DNA of 23,487 nt from a virus, in the IMG/VR virus record IMGVR_UViG_3300031758_000583, positions 1 through 23,487 of that record; one strand, written 5' to 3'. The notes beneath the pieces were generated by a model. The model saw nothing but the letters and a program-made list of their open reading frames with translations, had not been told where the DNA came from and ran no database searches. A program made the translations under genes and the position numbers. Below are positions 292 through 15,338 of this stretch, piece after piece; the stretch's first letter is position 1; each line of letters opens with the position of its first letter.

Positions 292-2517
292 ATGGCCAGT
301 TCGACCGAAACAAGGAAGAGGTTCAATGAGATCTTAGAGGCGTCCCGCACTCAGGATCGAAGCAACCAGGCGTCGACCATGGTTGTTTTGAGCCATCTAC
401 AGCAGATGACCCTTCTCATGATTAAGAAGGGTCTGACTTTTTATTGTGATCAAGATACATTTAAAAGCCGTACACGTTTTCTAGACGACGTTATTGCTTT
501 AAATAAGCTTGATATACGTTTTCCAGCGATTATTAGGAACTTTTTAATCGACGGCTGTGGACTGTTTTACTTCAGACCAGACCCAAAGCTTAAGTATCAG
601 ATCTACTTCTTCAACAAAAATCAGTATCGCGTTTACCACGATGTAAACGGAGAGGTTGAAGAAGTCGTTATTGTCTACAGCTATAAAGTTAAAAACGCGA
701 ATCTTGGTTTACCTAGCAATAGCTACGGACAAAACAAGCGTTATGTACGCTTGACCATCACAGCTGACGAAATTAGCGAAGTTGAGACTGATACTGAGTT
801 AAGTTTTGATTTAGAGCCTGGAGCTATTCTGACTCCAGCCAAAAAACGACCAAATACTCTTGGTTTTATCCCTGCTGTTGAAGTTTTAAATAAACCAAAC
901 GCCAGCGGAACTGAGGGTGAAGGCGAGTTTGACCCGTTTATGGAGCAGATTGTGCTCCATGACGAGATGACTCGGAACATCGCAAAGAATATTGAATTTT
1001 TTGGGAATCCCACGCTGATTAGCTCACGTCCTCGGAGTGATCTGGTCGAAGCGAGTGACGCCTCCAGTACTTTTAGGCCGACTATCAGCAGTCAGAGCGG
1101 TTTTTCTGGGGTCGATAGTCCTTCGACACGCGTAAGCGAGCCTTTTGGTGCCGGCATGGGCGGCGGTCTTCGCGTGCCTCGCATTATTGCGAACGTGGAA
1201 CCCTCTGACCGCGTGGGTTACATGACTCCGGACCCAGTGAACGGAGATATGAACCGGTACGCTCTCCTTCTGCGAGAGGAAATACGTACTGCCTTGGGCG
1301 GCGTTGATGAAATTTCAATTTCAGCTGGCGCGACCGCTACGGAAATCAAGGGTTTGATGGGTCGTGCTCAAGCCACGGCTCTCCGTAAGAACAAAAGCTT
1401 CTTGACTTACGGTTTCAATCGTCTCTTAGAGATGATGATCTATCACCAGGAGATGATTTTCCGCGAGTCGTTTATTGCCGCTGCTGGGCTTAAAGAACCG
1501 AGCTTACCTAAAGAACAAACGGAAGAAACTCTAGAGAAGTATCAGAAATCTTTAGCTCGGTACGAGGTTAAAGTCACCCAGACGATTCAGCTTGCTCTCC
1601 AAGAAAATAAAGTGCCTCCTGGCGTCGTCGGTTTACCCGAAGATGGTGATCGCACTGTTACTTACAGGTATCAAGGCGATGTTTACGAGGATACGGCATA
1701 CGACATTAACCAAAAGTCGATCGTTGTTCGTAATTTACAAGAGCTTGGTGTGGACAGCATCGAAGCTCTTAAGTTTCTTTTCCCTGAGAAAACTGATTCT
1801 GAGCGAGCTGAGATGTTGAAGGGTTTCCCCTTCCGCATGGTGCAACAAACTCAATCAGCAATGCAACAATTTCTGGTATTATTAAGCCAGATGTTGCAGT
1901 CGCCGCATCCCCTTGCGCCGAATCAGCCACTTGCTGCTGATCCTAGACTGAACATAACTCCGCTCCTTTACAGGACATTCGACCACCTCGCGGAAGAACT
2001 AACTTACTCGGGTAGCTATGAGCCAGCAGATCCAAGCTTCGACCCCGAGCCCGGTCTCCCCGGCGGTAGCCCCGGCGGTATCATCGGACCAGGGCTCAAC
2101 CGCCTACCCGCAGTGGGTGGCGCAAACCTCTACCCCGGCGGTAGCTTCGGTACCTACAGCCCAACCGCCGTCGCAGGTACAACAGGCTACGGGCCTTTCT
2201 ACCAGCAACCAGTTCAGCCAGTTAACGTCGCCCTCCTCCCCGAGCAATCCTTGGGAAGCGGCGATGGGTACCCTGGAACGGGTGCTGTCCCAGGTGAACT
2301 CTCCGTCCCCCAGCCAGGTTCAACAGTCGCCTTACCAGGTGGCACCGCAACTGGCTACTCAACTGAGCAATCAGAGTTTACAGGCCCAACCTTGGGCTTA
2401 CCAGGAGCAGCAGGTAGCGCCGACCTCGTTTACCAACGCTTCACAGACCCAAACTTCCTCGCAAACTTCTACGGCCCCGCAAACGAGCGTAAGCCCCGTA
2501 ACCGCCGAGGTCGTTAA
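292..2517 (+). CDS. Portal protein
   Basis: A 741-residue protein, called the portal (the dodecameric ring at the capsid vertex through which DNA is packaged and ejected). The call rests on size, position before a scaffold and the capsid gene, and portal-like content in the first 570 residues: an N-terminal helical stretch, then alternating beta and helical blocks, and a long charged helical region (residues about 400–440). From about residue 585 the protein changes to a Gly/Pro-rich, probably disordered tail (PGLPGGSPGG and similar) ending in a basic NERKPRNRRGR. That tail is exactly the part encoded by DNA that also codes for the scaffold-like protein in another frame (from 2018). No strong ribosome site precedes ATG 292. 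The portal identity is fairly secure; whether the last 166 residues are native or the result of a frameshift or lost stop is open. Confidence 0.8.
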   Translation: MASSTETRKRFNEILEASRTQDRSNQASTMVVLSHLQQMTLLMIKKGLTFYCDQDTFKSRTRFLDDVIALNKLDIRFPAIIRNFLIDGCGLFYFRPDPKLKYQIYFFNKNQYRVYHDVNGEVEEVVIVYSYKVKNANLGLPSNSYGQNKRYVRLTITADEISEVETDTELSFDLEPGAILTPAKKRPNTLGFIPAVEVLNKPNASGTEGEGEFDPFMEQIVLHDEMTRNIAKNIEFFGNPTLISSRPRSDLVEASDASSTFRPTISSQSGFSGVDSPSTRVSEPFGAGMGGGLRVPRIIANVEPSDRVGYMTPDPVNGDMNRYALLLREEIRTALGGVDEISISAGATATEIKGLMGRAQATALRKNKSFLTYGFNRLLEMMIYHQEMIFRESFIAAAGLKEPSLPKEQTEETLEKYQKSLARYEVKVTQTIQLALQENKVPPGVVGLPEDGDRTVTYRYQGDVYEDTAYDINQKSIVVRNLQELGVDSIEALKFLFPEKTDSERAEMLKGFPFRMVQQTQSAMQQFLVLLSQMLQSPHPLAPNQPLAADPRLNITPLLYRTFDHLAEELTYSGSYEPADPSFDPEPGLPGGSPGGIIGPGLNRLPAVGGANLYPGGSFGTYSPTAVAGTTGYGPFYQQPVQPVNVALLPEQSLGSGDGYPGTGAVPGELSVPQPGSTVALPGGTATGYSTEQSEFTGPTLGLPGAAGSADLVYQRFTDPNFLANFYGPANERKPRNRRGR

Positions 2518-2941
2518 TCACTTCGGGATTGAAGCTCCCGGCATCCTGAATCAGTACGCTTGCTCGCTTGAGGATCTCCTCATCGACCAAGCTCAGAAAA
2601 TGGACGCCCTCTCTGCTCGCCACGATGCGATGCAGACGATCCTGACTGATCCCGAGCATCTGGCTAACTACACCGATCGTTATTTCACGGAAGTGGTACC
2701 CGTGGACATCGACGGTGATCTTGACTATAGCCAGCAACAAGCTCAGACGTACCAGCCCCGCTACGACATGCCAGCGCCCCCGGCTAATGCAGGTGGCGTT
2801 AATGCCGGCGCTCAACCTCAGCAACAGTGGGATCAGTTCAGCGACGTCATGAACCGCAGCCCTGAGAACGCCTGGCGTGTTCTTCAGCAAATGGGTCCTG
2901 AAGCTATGCGTAGCAAGCTTCTCTTTATGGATCCTGCTTGA
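2018..2941 (+). CDS. Scaffold-like / capsid assembly protein overlapping the portal gene
   Basis: A 307-residue protein whose first half is a Gln/Pro/Ser/Thr-rich disordered region and whose second half (from about residue 165, ITAEVV-like segment through the C terminus) is a normal mixed-composition domain with helices such as SLEDLLIDQAQKMDAL and a closing basic helix near GPEAMRSKLLF. The composition, position between portal and major capsid protein, and a short helical C terminus fit a capsid scaffold. The first 500 nt (2018–2517) overlap the portal gene in a different frame. ATG 2018 forms an ATGA but has no good ribosome site; ATG 2264 (in NPWEAAMGTLERVL) follows GGGAAG by 5 nt and is a plausible alternative or second start. 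A terminator follows 24 nt after the stop. Confidence 0.7.
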   Translation: MSQQIQASTPSPVSPAVAPAVSSDQGSTAYPQWVAQTSTPAVASVPTAQPPSQVQQATGLSTSNQFSQLTSPSSPSNPWEAAMGTLERVLSQVNSPSPSQVQQSPYQVAPQLATQLSNQSLQAQPWAYQEQQVAPTSFTNASQTQTSSQTSTAPQTSVSPVTAEVVNHFGIEAPGILNQYACSLEDLLIDQAQKMDALSARHDAMQTILTDPEHLANYTDRYFTEVVPVDIDGDLDYSQQQAQTYQPRYDMPAPPANAGGVNAGAQPQQQWDQFSDVMNRSPENAWRVLQQMGPEAMRSKLLFMDPA

Positions 2942-4438: not shown

Positions 4439-6680
4439 ATGTTTATCGATAATGATTTCCCGAAGATTCTTGGTGCGGAACTTTACCGTCCTCACCCTGC
4501 ATACATCGTTGAGATGGCTGCAGAGCCGGTTGACAAACCAGCCGCCTCTCTGAGTAATCGGAGAGTGAAAACCCGGTGAATTGCTGGAAACCCTTCTTAA
4601 AAGCTTCAGGCCCTACAACGTAGCCGGCGACGGCAAGCGTGAATGGTTAAAAAGTCTGAAGTCTGGGGCAATCAGCAGCCAAGCCTCTCAGGAATGAGTG
4701 GAAGGTTCATCGACTAGGGCATACGATCCAGACCGGATTATGAAGTCCACTAGCGCCGGGGCTCCCAGTATTGTTCGTAAGCTTTAAGCTTTCGCTCAAT
4801 ACCTAGACTAGATCCTCCGTAAATAGCCTGTATGGCTTTTGCGTCCCTGATGTAACCGGGAATAGAATACAAATCTTTCCCGTTTTTGGTTAGCTCTGAT
4901 TTAATCGGAAGACTTAAGCCACTAACGTCGAGGATCCAAGTCTGAAGCTGGTAAGCAAACTCTAGAGAAGCCGTGGTGACTTTAAACCGACGTTCTGTAA
5001 CGGATCCGTCGCCGTCCCACACTCCTCTTAGAAAGTCCTTTTTAAACTCACGGAGGTTACAAGAAAGTTTCAAAGTGTAGGACTTGTTAGGTGTTATACC
5101 TAACTTAAGTAAATCCTCCACTAAAGACTTTTTACTAAGAACTAAAATTTTTTGAGGGGCACAGTTCCTTTCATTAATTTTAGAAATCTTTGTTTTAAGT
5201 TCTGGAGCACCTTCACCTAAGAACTTTCTAAACTGCTCTAAAATGTTACAATCTTGTTCTTTTAGAGCTATCCTCGCTGCCGTTAATCTAGGACTTATGT
5301 TTCCATCTGCTGCTAACAAACCTAGAAAGTAAGCTTTATCTGGCGTATCGATGATCTCAAAATAGCGATCATTGTAATCCAGAAAAGAGTAAGTCTCTCC
5401 TGATTTTCTCTTACGCTTACCGGTTTGTTCGAAATAAGATGGAATACCTAGTTTCTTCCTAGCTTTATAAAAAGTCACCATCGTTACACCTAGAACTTTA
5501 GCTGCTTCAACATCTGGCATTTTCGAAGCCAGTTCTTGAACAACAGAAAACTCTGGGTTAAAACGTTCAAAGCGTGACATCTGGGAGCAAGATATAGTCA
5601 GTGCCCTAGGGATGAGAAACCTAGGGAGCGGACCCGGACTCAGGGATCCTAACACGTGTTGTCCACGACTTTTCAAAGCAACCCGGCCAGACGGTTCAGT
5701 TAGATCGTTACCGTTTCTTCGGTAACCCCGGCTCCAAAGAATCTCGCGAGCGTACTGCTGAGCAGACCATTGGTACTGCTAACAGCCGCAATATCGTGAA
5801 GGATAAGGTGCTCGTGACGCTTCGCGAGTACACCGGTCCTGCTGACCCGAGTGACCCCACTCAGCCCAGCACCTTCAAGATTGCGCGTGAGACCCTGATT
5901 ACCGCCCAGCGTCTGCTGCTGGACACCGGTAACCTCACCACCTTCCACCAATCGATCGGCAGCCTGACTCTGCTCGACGACTATCGTCGTTGGCGCGACC
6001 GGGTGTTCATCAATGAACTCCTGAAGGCTGTTTCTAAGGGTCAGTCTTCTGACACCCAAGGCGGTTACTACTTCCCTGGTGACCTGGCCACTGGTGCTCT
6101 GACCTACACCAACGCCGAGCAAGCTAAGTTCGACGTTAAGGATGACCTGCTGCGCGTGGTGAAGAGCCTGCGTAAGCGGAACACCCCCACCTTCCAGGAC
6201 GGTTTCTATCGCTGCGTTTGCGATCCGACCTTCCTGATGCACCTGCGTCAGAACAGCGACTTCCGTGAAGTTGCTCGTTATCCTGGCAATGGTCAAATCA
6301 ACCCCCTCATGTCCGGGATGCAGCCCAACGCTGCCCTGTACATGGGTCAAGGCTTTGGCCAAGCCACCTTTGTGGCCGGCGAGCCGATCATGCCCACGGG
6401 CTTTGTGTTTGAAGGCGTGCGCTTCTTCGAAAGCACCAACATGCCTACTCAAACTCAAAACGCGACCATCGCGTCTACCGCCGCTTCCTACAACGCAGCA
6501 GTCGGTATCTTCTTTGGTCCTCAGGCCGTTGGTGTCGGCATCGGTGGCAACAATGCCCAGGTGCTGCTCAACAACAACGACGACTTCAGCCGTTTCATCA
6601 TGATGATTTGGAGCCTGTACGCAGGTTTCGAACTTCTGAACGCTGATTTCGTCACCGTTGGTTACTCTTTCGACGCTTGA
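4439..6680 (+). CDS. Major capsid protein, split by a group I intron
   Basis: The coding sequence is join(4439..4530, 5657..6680), 371 residues. Exon 1 (MFIDNDFPKILGAELYRPHP and about 10 more residues) continues in frame only if 4531–5656 is removed: the last two bases of exon 1 (GT) join the T at 5657 to give a Val codon, producing AAEPVVVHDF. Exon 2 then reads through VHDFSKQPGQTVQLDRYRFF and on to TGA 6678. Reading exon 1 without splicing hits TGA at 4577 after 46 codons, so capsid production needs splicing. The protein is a cyanophage-type major capsid protein, presumably of HK97 fold (inference from family and position). Codons are strongly biased to C-ending forms, as in highly expressed genes. 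It is followed at 15 nt by a second, equally biased structural gene with a strong ribosome site, then a terminator. Confidence 0.9.
4531..5656 (+). mobile_element. Group I self-splicing intron in the capsid gene
   Basis: This is a 1126-nt intron. P1: exon end AGAGCCGGU (4522–4530) pairs with the internal guide GCCGCCUCU (4541–4549) with one mismatch and the required U·G at the splice site. A P4-side AATTGCTGGAAACC (4579–4592) and a Q-like AATCAGCAGCCAAGCC (4670–4685) match the conserved core of phage group I introns. P3 is GCCCT (4610–4614) with AGGGC (4716–4720). P7 is GACTA (4712–4716) with TAGTC (5595–5599), inside the classic AAGATATAGTC element. P8 is TCCAGA (4727–4732) with TCTGGG (5580–5585). 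P9 is CCCTAGG (5604–5610) with CCTAGGG (5620–5626). The last base is G (5656). A P10 of exon TGTT with intron GACA is possible. All core parts are present, so splicing activity is expected; the L8 loop carries the endonuclease gene on the other strand. Confidence 0.92.
4750..5580 (-). CDS. LAGLIDADG homing endonuclease, antisense within the intron
   Basis: A 276-residue protein with two LAGLIDADG motifs, YFLGLLAADG (residues 84–93) and FLRGVWDGDG (183–192), each keeping the acidic catalytic residue (D92, D191), so a monomeric two-motif enzyme that cuts an intronless allele to spread the intron. An N-terminal HTH-like segment (residues 23–47, DVEAAKVLGVTMVTFYKARK) probably helps DNA binding. 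The frame is open further upstream to 5676, but that would extend into capsid exon 2; ATG 5580 is chosen because it sits exactly at the P8 stem base, so the whole gene lies in loop L8. It is transcribed opposite to the intron and capsid mRNA, so it needs its own minus-strand promoter. No clear ribosome site precedes it. AT-rich codons differ from the C-rich capsid exons, consistent with an invading element. Confidence 0.92.
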   Translation of the reverse strand: MSRFERFNPEFSVVQELASKMPDVEAAKVLGVTMVTFYKARKKLGIPSYFEQTGKRKRKSGETYSFLDYNDRYFEIIDTPDKAYFLGLLAADGNISPRLTAARIALKEQDCNILEQFRKFLGEGAPELKTKISKINERNCAPQKILVLSKKSLVEDLLKLGITPNKSYTLKLSCNLREFKKDFLRGVWDGDGSVTERRFKVTTASLEFAYQLQTWILDVSGLSLPIKSELTKNGKDLYSIPGYIRDAKAIQAIYGGSSLGIERKLKAYEQYWEPRR

Positions 6681-12161: not shown

Positions 12162-13706
12162 GTGGCACGCCGAAAAGGCTCAGATGACTTTGGCTGGGGG
12201 TCACACCAGCCTAAAAAGTCTAAGTTCGGCTTCTCTTCATTTGAAGGTGCGAGTACTGGGCATCAGCTGTCTACGCCGATGCCTTTCAAGCGAAAATTTA
12301 GACCTGACTTTAACTTAAAAGATTTCAGTATTCTGTATGACTATAACTACGCTTCCATGTGGACTAGGTGGCGTAGGGGGTATGAATTGTATATGTACGC
12401 TAATCAAGCGTACGTTGGTTTAAATTATTCGTTCAGGTACTGGACTACAGGCACCGTGGGCGTTGGTGCTGCGCTGCCCGGCGTTTGTTACATGTACCCC
12501 TCAATGAGCCAAGACATGGCTATGAGGATGGTTGCGATACGCCCAAGAGATTCTTTTAACTTTCTCGACTTTGGTTACTCGATTAAATCTGTAACAAAAA
12601 CAAGTGGCACAACTTACGCTGTTGAACTTTCAAGTAACTTTGGGCCACCTATTTCATTCTTTACAGGCGAGATTCTGTCGGATCGTTTTGCGGCAAACGG
12701 TACAGAAAAGACGACTTATAACAATTACGTAGTTATCGGTGTAGGTAACGGTACAACTCCAATTACTCCAGGATTCGCTCCAATATTTAACAGTATCTTT
12801 ATTTCACTGGATACGAACAACAGCTGGTCTGTTATCGATAACGAGACATTAGCAGCACCTGCCGGGCTCCCCACCGTTGGTGACTATTTCACTACGGAAA
12901 TGCGATTTGGGTGCAATTGCCCGGATTACCTAGCGCGTGAAGATTTTAATCTTTATGAATACAGTCTGAAACGAAAGTATCCTTATACGCTTCCTCAAGA
13001 CTTAAAGCCAGGTCTATACGATGCGGGTAAAGATTTCTTAGCTTCTCGAACGGAAAACAGCCGAGATCTGCCTGGCTTCACTCGTGATTTTGGTTTTTTG
13101 TATGTTAAAAGACTTTTAAACTTACCTAGTTATACAGACGGCAGCAAAGTTTATTCAGACCCTAACCTTATATATTTTGCACCGAGATGGTGCAAGCATA
13201 TTTACGCGTCGTTCTGGGATATGCAGAACAGATTTGGGACGGACATGTTCCCACCAGCGTGGTTGGCTCAACCTACTGATGAGCCTATGGACGATAAGTA
13301 CAGAGAATTTTTTGATTTGAACTTAGCTAAACAAACGACATTTGAGAAAAGACAACAACATCTTCGCTGGTGGGAGAAGTATTCTCCTTCCAAAAATACG
13401 GTGCCGGTACACATGATGTATCCTGATATGCACCCTACTATGGTAAAAACTCTTAACTTTGACACATTAGCTTCAGGCACTAGCACAGCTATGACTGCTA
13501 GTGGTTTTGAGATGTTTACGATTGATCAGTATGATCCGTTTGCTCCTCCCGACCCAGATGTAACTCCTAAGTTAGATGGCGGTACATACAGTAACGGTGT
13601 TCTTGTCAGTGGAGCCTCTTTAATTTATGACGGAGGTAGCTACGCAAACGGTAACTTAATACCGTATCCTTCTCTTCCTTCTTTGATAAACGGAGGCGTT
13701 TACTGA
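12162..13706 (+). CDS. Large tail or virion protein with a split SWIM-like zinc motif
   Basis: A 514-residue aromatic-rich protein (many Tyr, Trp, Phe) starting at GTG 12162 and overlapping the next gene by one base (TGATG). Residues 251–257 are CNCPDYL and residues 344–350 are CKHIYAS. Together they match the two halves of a SWIM zinc finger (C-x-C … C-x-H: C251, C253, C344, H346), but the halves are 90 residues apart instead of the usual 6–25. The C-terminal 50 residues carry two similar beta hairpins (LDGGTYSNGVLVSGASLIYD and the following GGSYANGNLI). Position before tail-fibre-like genes suggests a tail hub, tube or baseplate-like component. The exact role is unknown; the zinc-site reading is from the motif, not from any structure. 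Confidence 0.65.
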   Translation: MARRKGSDDFGWGSHQPKKSKFGFSSFEGASTGHQLSTPMPFKRKFRPDFNLKDFSILYDYNYASMWTRWRRGYELYMYANQAYVGLNYSFRYWTTGTVGVGAALPGVCYMYPSMSQDMAMRMVAIRPRDSFNFLDFGYSIKSVTKTSGTTYAVELSSNFGPPISFFTGEILSDRFAANGTEKTTYNNYVVIGVGNGTTPITPGFAPIFNSIFISLDTNNSWSVIDNETLAAPAGLPTVGDYFTTEMRFGCNCPDYLAREDFNLYEYSLKRKYPYTLPQDLKPGLYDAGKDFLASRTENSRDLPGFTRDFGFLYVKRLLNLPSYTDGSKVYSDPNLIYFAPRWCKHIYASFWDMQNRFGTDMFPPAWLAQPTDEPMDDKYREFFDLNLAKQTTFEKRQQHLRWWEKYSPSKNTVPVHMMYPDMHPTMVKTLNFDTLASGTSTAMTASGFEMFTIDQYDPFAPPDPDVTPKLDGGTYSNGVLVSGASLIYDGGSYANGNLIPYPSLPSLINGGVY

Positions 13707-14407
13707 TGGCTTCAACACCTGTAATTCTTCTTTCTAAGCGCAGCGGTAACTCATCAGATCGACCTAACGCCGCCACGGTTCAGGCCGGTGAACTCGCTAT
13801 GTCCTTTGGGGCGGCGGATCCAGGTCTGTACTTCAAAGATTCTGCCGGATCGATTAGAAAGTTTGGATCAAATCACTACGGAACTACCTCTCCCAACTCC
13901 AGTCCACTCGGTTCGCCAGGTAACTCAGTAGGAGAGTTGTGGGCGGATTCTTCAACTAGTAATTACTATCTCCGTGTTTGGACTGGCGCTGCTTGGCAGA
14001 AGGTCGGTGCCGGTTTTGCTGACACTGCTAACTCAGCCAATACCGCAGTTACGGCCAATAGTGCAGCAACAGCAACTGTGGCTAATTCAACCATCGTCGC
14101 AAGTGGAGCTTTGTCAGCTGTAGTTGCCAGCGGCTCCTTGTCAGCTGTTATCGCTAGTGGCGCATTATCCGCTGTAGTCGCTAGTGGTTCGATCTCTGCT
14201 GTTATCTCTAGTGGCGCATTATCCGCTGTAGTCGCTAGTGGTTCGATCTCTGCTGTTATCTCTAGTGGTTCACTTTCAGCAGTAGTTGCTAGCGGCATCG
14301 CCGTTGTTACGGCATTGCCTGCCGCATCCACCGGCTCCCTTGTTTATTTGAATGCCGGCACTAGCGGTCTGTATGTTTCAGCTAACGGCGGCTGGATTCT
14401 CACATAG
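13706..14407 (+). CDS. Tail-fibre-like protein with 9-residue repeats
   Basis: A 233-residue protein. Residues 1–55 match a domain frequent at phage fibre N termini (ILLSKRSGNSSDRP … AGELAMSF … GLYFKD). Residues 76–100 carry a GELWAD … LRVWTGAAWQKV module that also recurs three times in the gene at 21622. Residues 105–130 are Ala/Thr/Asn-rich, and 132–194 consist of seven tandem 9-residue repeats of the form [AS]SG[AS][LI]SAV[VI]. A final beta segment (GLYVSANGGWILT) ends the protein. This is a trimeric beta-structured fibre or tail needle by analogy (inference). It starts inside the previous stop and overlaps the convergent Dps-like gene by 8 nt. Confidence 0.75.
   Translation: MASTPVILLSKRSGNSSDRPNAATVQAGELAMSFGAADPGLYFKDSAGSIRKFGSNHYGTTSPNSSPLGSPGNSVGELWADSSTSNYYLRVWTGAAWQKVGAGFADTANSANTAVTANSAATATVANSTIVASGALSAVVASGSLSAVIASGALSAVVASGSISAVISSGALSAVVASGSISAVISSGSLSAVVASGIAVVTALPAASTGSLVYLNAGTSGLYVSANGGWILT
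14161..14268 (+). repeat. Perfect 54-bp tandem duplication in fibre gene
   Basis: Two identical 54-bp copies (14161–14214 and 14215–14268) lie within a longer array of degenerate 27-bp units, each encoding the 9-residue repeat. Flanking units differ at many third positions, so this pair is a recent duplication of two adjacent units and a likely site of copy-number change. Confidence 0.95.
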
Positions 14408-14942
14408 AGCCACGCAGCGTGGCCTTCATCATCCAAGCTCCCTTGAATAAGTTGCCGCAGATCTCAGCTGCATAATTTTCGACATCCGGTGCACCTGTCT
14501 GGCGTGCAGCTTCAGTGAGATCTTTTGCCATCATGGCGCCTGCCTCTAGATTTTTAGTGTAGAGAGTAAGACCCTCGCGAGCGTCGTATGTTTTAACGGC
14601 AGGAAACTTTTTAAAGGCGTCGAATAGACCACATTGACACATAGGCATAAGATAGTCCATGCTGCGCACCAGCTCAGCCACAGTGTCAAAGTCAGAAGTA
14701 TGTTGCTGATACTGTTCTTTTAAGAATTCGTGAATCGCCAAGAAGTTAGAGCACTCGACGTTTAGATGCAAAAGGTGAGCTTGTATGTTTAATTGATATA
14801 AATAAGAGGCAAAGGAGACCATCTGATAAACGAGGTTATCAGGCGTGGCCTCCTTTGTGATAACGACCTCCTCCTTAATAACTTCTTGCTTAGGCGCCTC
14901 AGAGGCGTTTTGAAAGATGTCAGCTAAAGAGGAGGTGTTCAT
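14400..14942 (-). CDS. dps-like: Dps-like (ferritin-family) protein
   Basis: A 180-residue protein. After a disordered Glu/Lys-rich N terminus (1–33), residues 36–178 follow the Dps four-helix pattern: HLNVECSNFLAIHEFLKEQY and FDTVAELVRSMDYL align with the E. coli Dps HWN…H…D…D…AE region, and the C-terminal GAWMMKATL matches its final WML helix. Of the five intersubunit ferroxidase residues of E. coli Dps (H51, H63, D67, D78, E82), four are kept here as H59, H71, D86 and E90, and D67 is replaced by K75. Dps proteins form 12-subunit cages that oxidise and store iron with peroxide and protect DNA. An additional C102-x-C104 is present. It is 9 nt downstream of an HTH gene on the same strand and probably in one operon. 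Function during infection (oxidative or iron protection) is inferred. Confidence 0.8.
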   Translation of the reverse strand: MNTSSLADIFQNASEAPKQEVIKEEVVITKEATPDNLVYQMVSFASYLYQLNIQAHLLHLNVECSNFLAIHEFLKEQYQQHTSDFDTVAELVRSMDYLMPMCQCGLFDAFKKFPAVKTYDAREGLTLYTKNLEAGAMMAKDLTEAARQTGAPDVENYAAEICGNLFKGAWMMKATLRGSM

Positions 14943-14951
14943 TGTCGGCTA

Positions 14952-15203
14952 TCAGACAGCACAAGCAGCGCTTTCTTCTACTTTAGCCTCTTCCTCCGCA
15001 GAGTTCAGATAAGCCTCCAGAGCATCTTTGTTGATGCGGTACAGGGACTTTGCACCATTTGGTTGCAGATTGACGAAGATGCCTTTGGGCCAGCCACCGG
15101 GTTGGTTGGACTCAGTGAGAGAAATACGCTTACGTACAAAGCCTGCAGAGCAGTTCAGCAGCTCAGCGGTCTGGGCGATGGTCAAGAGCCTTGCGGATTC
15201 CAT
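14952..15203 (-). CDS. Excisionase/MerR-type helix-turn-helix DNA-binding protein
   Basis: An 83-residue protein. Residues 5–30 (LLTIAQTAELLNCSAGFVRK) form the winged-HTH opening typical of excisionase/AlpA/MerR-like small proteins, followed by a wing (GGWPKGIFVNLQP) and a helix ending ALEAYLNSAEEEAKVEES. It lies just upstream of the Dps-like gene and is divergent from the gene at 15339. A perfect 7-bp inverted repeat stands 9 nt before its ATG and may be its operator. No integrase is nearby, so a transcription-regulator role for the Dps unit is more likely than excision. Confidence 0.75.
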   Translation of the reverse strand: MESARLLTIAQTAELLNCSAGFVRKRISLTESNQPGGWPKGIFVNLQPNGAKSLYRINKDALEAYLNSAEEEAKVEESAACAV

Positions 15204-15211
15204 TTAATTTG

Positions 15212-15233
15212 GCGTTGTGAATGAAGACAACGC
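15212..15233. promoter_or_regulatory. Inverted repeat upstream of HTH gene, possible operator
   Basis: GCGTTGT (15212–15218) and ACAACGC (15227–15233) are perfect reverse complements separated by 8 nt. The site lies 9–30 nt before the HTH start codon in the 135-bp region between divergent genes, so it could be bound by the HTH protein itself or form a hairpin in its mRNA leader. Confidence 0.45.
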
Positions 15234-15338
15234 GAAAAGGTTAGCAGGAATCTTCATGAAGGGAATCTGTGAATGCTGTCTTAAGGTTAATTTTAGGTTT
15301 CGACCCAGTAGACTGAGTAGACGCACTGGACAAGCCTC

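Follow-up and report, generated by a model that had tools for sequence, protein, structure and literature searches.

A largely viral family of Dps-like proteins lacks the acid at position 67 and the tryptophan at position 52 of the canonical ferroxidase centre

Phage-borne Dps proteins are already known. They have been described in Lactobacillus phages (PMC6669764) and in gut phages (PMC8008677), annotated Dps is present in enterobacterial phages and in cyanophage S-SRM01, and the homologue in Synechococcus phage S-EIV1 was previously annotated as ferritin-like; a literature search on S-EIV1 and ferritin found nothing. In the ferroxidase centre of Dps, the acid at position 67 contacts site B alone, via a water (PMC6675082), and in most Dps structures the centre holds just one metal ion (PMC7762939). 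The His-type centre is characterised by a His replacing D78 and by a ligand His, H164, in helix D, and one protein of this type, NpDps4, functions with Asn at position 67 plus extra His ligands (PMC6675082). Here we compare these systems with a Dps-like gene in the 23,487 nucleotides of IMG/VR virus record IMGVR_UViG_3300031758_000583 (positions 1 to 23,487 of that record), a stretch that we call the window. The gene and its convergent neighbour are:

14400..14942, minus strand: Dps-like mini-ferritin gene, 180 aa (Pfam and PHROG matches, AlphaFold2 model, Dps fold matches)
13706..14407, plus strand: tail-protein-like gene, convergent with dps and a conserved neighbour (PHROG 356 minor tail protein, 3.7e-15; synteny)

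The dps frame is open from its ATG start, and its stop overlaps the 3' end of the tail-protein gene by 8 bases. That the window encodes a phage Dps-like protein had been proposed in a preliminary description made from the sequence alone, and this is borne out by the homology searches and the fold. The product matches the Pfam Ferritin domain PF00210 with an E value of 4.5e-8, which passes the Pfam cutoff, and PHROG 3636 with 5.8e-20; the best match in the PDB was C. jejuni 3kwo (E = 4e-9 with phmmer and 1.9e-11 with a profile). The PHROG 3636 HMM was matched by all 46 of the 46 alignment members, the best reaching 2.2e-39. Judged by these scores, the similarity to Dps and ferritins is far beyond chance. 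The dN/dS ratios of 0.04–0.06 against close relatives, computed with a dS of 1.1–2.7 that is partly saturated, indicate strong purifying selection on the gene.

The structure was predicted with AlphaFold2 as a single chain, using an alignment of 54 family members. The model has a mean pLDDT of 85, with values of at least 90 across most of the bundle, and helices at residues 34–61, 67–94, 103–109, 121–149 and 152–178, the third being a short BC helix. Dps structures were the top Foldseek matches of the model, and VIA-align gave Z scores of about 20 against many of them (1jig: Z 20.7, 1.4 Å over 145 residues; 2chp: Z 20.7, 1.6 Å). The predicted structure shows the four-helix bundle of ferritin-like proteins and, connecting helices B and C, the short extra helix; the preliminary description had taken this arrangement as decisive for a Dps, and the two structure comparisons agree with it.

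For the ferroxidase centre, the relevant codons are:

14766..14768, minus strand: H59 (E. coli H51, site A ligand; by alignment, kept in 150 of 152 relatives)
14763..14765, minus strand: L60 (E. coli W52 position; Leu or Phe in 152 of 152 relatives, Trp in 37 of 37 comparison Dps)
14730..14732, minus strand: H71 (E. coli H63; by alignment, kept in 150 of 152)
14718..14720, minus strand: K75 (E. coli D67, site B acid; Lys, Gly, Gln, Arg or Asn in the family, never Asp or Glu)
14685..14687, minus strand: D86 (E. coli D78, site A ligand; by alignment, kept in 150 of 152)
14673..14675, minus strand: E90 (E. coli E82, bridging ligand; by alignment, kept in 152 of 152)

The columns are numbered after the E. 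coli Dps sequence, and its close relative L247 gives identical columns. An alignment-based scan of IMG/VR identified 345 loci of the family, and the 239 loci fetched gave 152 distinct proteins. These were set against a comparison set of 37 Dps, made up of E. coli Dps, 8 sequences of other phages and 28 encoded by cells or plasmids. The set is small and non-random, drawn largely from one phylum and plasmids. The alignment confirms the columns given earlier for four of the five E. coli ligands and for a Lys at the place of D67: H51, H63, D67, D78 and E82 correspond to H59, H71, K75, D86 and E90 in the window. All four columns of the intersubunit ligands H51, H63, D78 and E82 are thus filled, and the conservation counts across the 152 relatives reject a chance alignment of these residues. 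Their near invariance points to a metal site under selection.

The residue at position 75 behaves differently from the four ligands. Among the 152 relatives it is Lys in 112, Gly in 35, Gln in 2, Arg in 2 and Asn in 1, and an acid is never found, whereas 33 of the 37 comparison Dps have Asp or Glu there. The swap to Lys is therefore real in the window protein but not peculiar to it, since all 152 relatives lack the acid. On a family tree built without that column, parsimony requires at least 21 changes among Lys, Gly and other residues. Lys75 had been suggested to serve another purpose; the Gly in 35 of 152 proteins and the repeated changes instead mean that the site-B acid has been lost throughout the family, and the same Gly count gives no support to Lys75 as an essential residue. 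The codons for Lys (AAR) and Gly (GGN) are two changes apart, and the one-step A/G intermediates encode Glu or Arg, of which Arg was seen twice among the 152 proteins and Glu never. This hints at selection against an acidic residue at this position but is not proof of it. The presence of G75 is also associated with Q82, which was found in 21 of 35 G75 proteins and 7 of 112 K75 proteins; independent pairs gave the same direction, with 4.7 versus 0.1 of 10 on average and a median P value of 0.06.

The second change, absent from the preliminary description, affects the position that follows the first ligand His. Among the 152 relatives this position is Leu in 133 and Phe in 19 and never the Trp52 of the canonical ferroxidase centre, the window protein having L60. 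Judged from these alignments, the replacement of Trp52 is more uniform across the family than the change at position 75. Further residues forming a family signature are Q54, L57, E63, F73, H81, F85, C102, Y128, N131, K140 and F166; of these, E63, elsewhere usually Thr, Lys, Ser or Arg, is a candidate replacement carboxylate. As Trp52, a second-shell residue, is lost and much of the surrounding shell is altered, ferroxidation by the window protein may be slow or absent. A literature search on Dps with Lys at position 67 or on Trp52 gave nothing direct, its coverage being incomplete; within that literature we came across no earlier account of both replacements occurring throughout a Dps family, and the double change at the iron site may be new.

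These losses raise the question of whether iron handling has been given up altogether, the changed centre being a relic and the fold a scaffold or a binder of another partner. The site-B acid and Trp52 are missing from every member, and two members, L044 and L047, have jointly lost H56, H59, H71 and D86 (to Asn, Ser, Ser and Asn) and carry K167D and W170G, while they retain K75 and E90. The reading frames of the pair are open and constrained (dN/dS 0.07), so a role needing no iron may exist in the family. However, relics usually drift, and the four ligands are kept in 150 of the 152 proteins of a very divergent family; for the family as a whole we consider the abandonment of iron handling unlikely. 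The joint loss of H56, H59, H71 and D86 with K75 left in place indicates that the ligands act as a unit from which K75 is excluded.

When 56 rows were placed in a tree, one branch with a support of 100/100 set the family apart, its stem measuring 2.87 changes per column, as expected from an old and distinct group rather than from a recent copy of a host gene. A scan of 84,980 GTDB genomes found two relatives only, both on contigs of MAGs (10 kb and 48 kb long) that may themselves be viral; the scan used short peptide patterns, which can miss distant cellular relatives. A recent pick-up of a host dps is rejected by the fully supported clade, the long stem and the scarcity of cellular relatives, and within the scans made the family is almost exclusively viral. 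Two contigs of a MAG named as Euryarchaeota archaeon carry family members (L084, L118 and L120), and these would be either binned phage contigs or an archaeal virus.

Synechococcus phage S-EIV1 was the sole family match among 50,697 phage records and is the only cultured member. The phage lineage was placed with the capsid gene:

5796..6680, plus strand: major capsid protein (PHROG 1357, 9.5e-21; 66% identical to that of S-EIV1)

S-EIV1 is the only phage record that shares the capsid of the window, and its portal is 42% identical to that of the window. A dps was present in 13 of the 13 capsid-selected records of at least 37 kb; the seven capsid-selected records without it are all at most 33 kb long and may be fragments. 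By analogy with S-EIV1, which infects Synechococcus, the host of the window phage is probably cyanobacterial. The earlier idea of a cyanophage is indirectly supported by this relationship. For photosynthetic infection the S-EIV1 link is the only support that we found; no gene of the Photo_RC (psbA/psbD) family was present in any of 30 records, some of which may be fragments. Around the portal and capsid genes of the window, we also observed a 307-aa open reading frame (2018–2941, plus strand) that overlaps the portal frame (292–2517, plus strand) by 500 bases in a different frame. The same frame is open in S-EIV1 at 59284–60264 (326 aa), overlapping the portal homologue and 33% identical over 256 aa, and the S-EIV1 annotation covers only 59863–60264 of it; the frame is possibly a conserved overlapping gene. 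A free-standing LAGLIDADG endonuclease gene (4750–5676, minus strand) adjoins the capsid gene, and a similar one was found in only two fetched relatives (31% identity), most loci stopping short of the region.

Compared with S-EIV1 AHV82153, annotated as 'DNA-binding ferritin-like protein', the window protein is about 46% identical and has the same four ligands, no acid at position 67 and no Trp52; the S-EIV1 protein differs in having Gly at position 67, where the window has Lys. Canonical Dps (E. coli Dps, C. jejuni 3kwo, P. aeruginosa PA0962 and H. pylori NAP) share with it the fold, the BC helix and H51, H63, D78 and E82, whereas the window has Lys for Asp/Glu67, Leu for W52 and distinct shell residues, and the family forms the separate, long-stemmed clade. 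The cyanobacterial His-type Dps (NpDps4, TeDpsA and TlDps1) offer a parallel in that position 67 can be non-acidic, being Asn in NpDps4 (PMC6675082). The window protein nevertheless keeps Asp at D86, with no His for D78, and residues 150–180 contain no His that could act as H164 in helix D, by which a His-type centre is rejected. Other phage Dps (from Grimontviridae, Kuravirus SU10, Bacteroides phage BS162P1, Lactobacillus phage 3-521 and S-SRM01, besides those of gut phages; PMC8008677) resemble ours in being phage-borne, but the eight sequences examined fall outside the family and have W52 in 8 of 8 and Asp or Glu at position 67 in 7 of 8. The Dps of Synechococcus phage S-SRM01 (L354, 404–838) likewise lies outside the family and has kept Trp52 with Gly at position 67; here another cyanophage seems to have lost the site-B acid independently. 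Taken by fold and homology, the window protein is a Dps whose ferroxidase centre, as read from the alignment and the model, is neither canonical nor of the His type.

Upstream of dps the window contains:

14952..15203, minus strand: HTH_17 (excisionase/MerR-like) gene, 83 aa, first of the HTH–dps pair (HTH_17 6.2e-6, slightly below the cutoff)
15208..15237, no strand assigned: inverted repeat just upstream of the HTH start (core GCGTTGT-N8-ACAACGC at 15212–15233)

The HTH gene ends 9 bases upstream of dps. It is found in the same place, 70–100% identical to that of the window, in about 60 relatives and is usually better conserved than dps, and in these about 60 relatives the position of dps is constant, on the strand opposite to the structural genes and directly behind the HTH gene. 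The core of the inverted repeat is kept in L003, L004, L006 and L017, and the repeat is a possible operator of the HTH–dps pair. The fixed place of dps within the structural gene block would fit a cage or subunit that is built into or packed with the virus particle, giving protection or iron control at entry; in a sister clade, the gene immediately before dps is a virion structural gene of the same orientation, and proteins of the window clade share a conserved N-terminal segment in which residues 6–14 are predicted to form a short helix. Such a virion association is nevertheless rather improbable, as dps of the window clade lies on the opposite strand behind an HTH gene of its own and dps of S-EIV1 is distant from the structural genes, adjoining an annotated sulfate adenylyltransferase where the window has the HTH gene. 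Sister-clade loci have, a short distance downstream of dps, a gene of the PHROG 3704 type, a PHROG that carries the label 'ferredoxin' (moron/host takeover):

L056, 8748–9473; L066, 10659–11330; L072, 8787–9518 (minus strand): PHROG 3704-type genes (L066 and L072 scanned, L056 similar by eye)

Alternatively, the cage might have little ferroxidase activity and bind DNA of the phage or the host so as to compact or shield it. Some relatives have Lys-rich N-tails, such as KPKAPAKSKNG in the sister clade, and PHROG 3636 is labelled 'DNA binding protein', though this is a label only. The N-tail of the window protein is not rich in Lys and Arg, with a net charge of −4 over the first 35 residues, which makes E. 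coli-like DNA binding through a basic N-tail unlikely for it; as the metal ligands are also almost invariant, we regard a DNA-shielding cage as quite improbable.

The simplest reading is a cage that keeps site A without a normal site B, given that the acid at position 67 contacts site B alone and that most Dps structures hold a single ion. We consider it fairly probable that the protein is a virus-specific mini-ferritin of the Dps fold that oxidises Fe2+ and limits Fenton damage during infection of a probably cyanobacterial host. The HTH–dps pair would be expressed during infection, and the product would assemble into a predicted 12-mer cage. Each centre would bind one iron at site A, where H59 of one subunit meets D86 and E90 of the partner subunit, and site B would be weak or absent because Lys or Gly replaces the water-mediated carboxylate. 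The cage would then take up and oxidise Fe2+, leaving less Fenton damage while the phage replicates. More speculatively, the altered centre might change the oxidant or the rate, and the purpose might be detoxification of iron and peroxide rather than packing of DNA.

A wider reading, which we offer tentatively, is that the family is an ancient and essentially virus-only class of mini-ferritins. It would have a single-iron centre where the site-B acid is selected against (Lys or Gly standing in its place), the Trp is gone and the shell is rebuilt with Q54, L57, E63, H81 and K140; it would differ in oxidant use or iron release and be a core gene of the S-EIV1 lineage. If the altered centre represents real chemistry, the family is a natural experiment on the roles of the second iron site and of Trp52 in Dps, spanning more than 150 sequences with repeated exchanges of Lys and Gly and one branch without the ligands. 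If true, iron handling would be a core need of a widespread and barely cultured cyanophage lineage, for which S-EIV1 offers a cultured test case.
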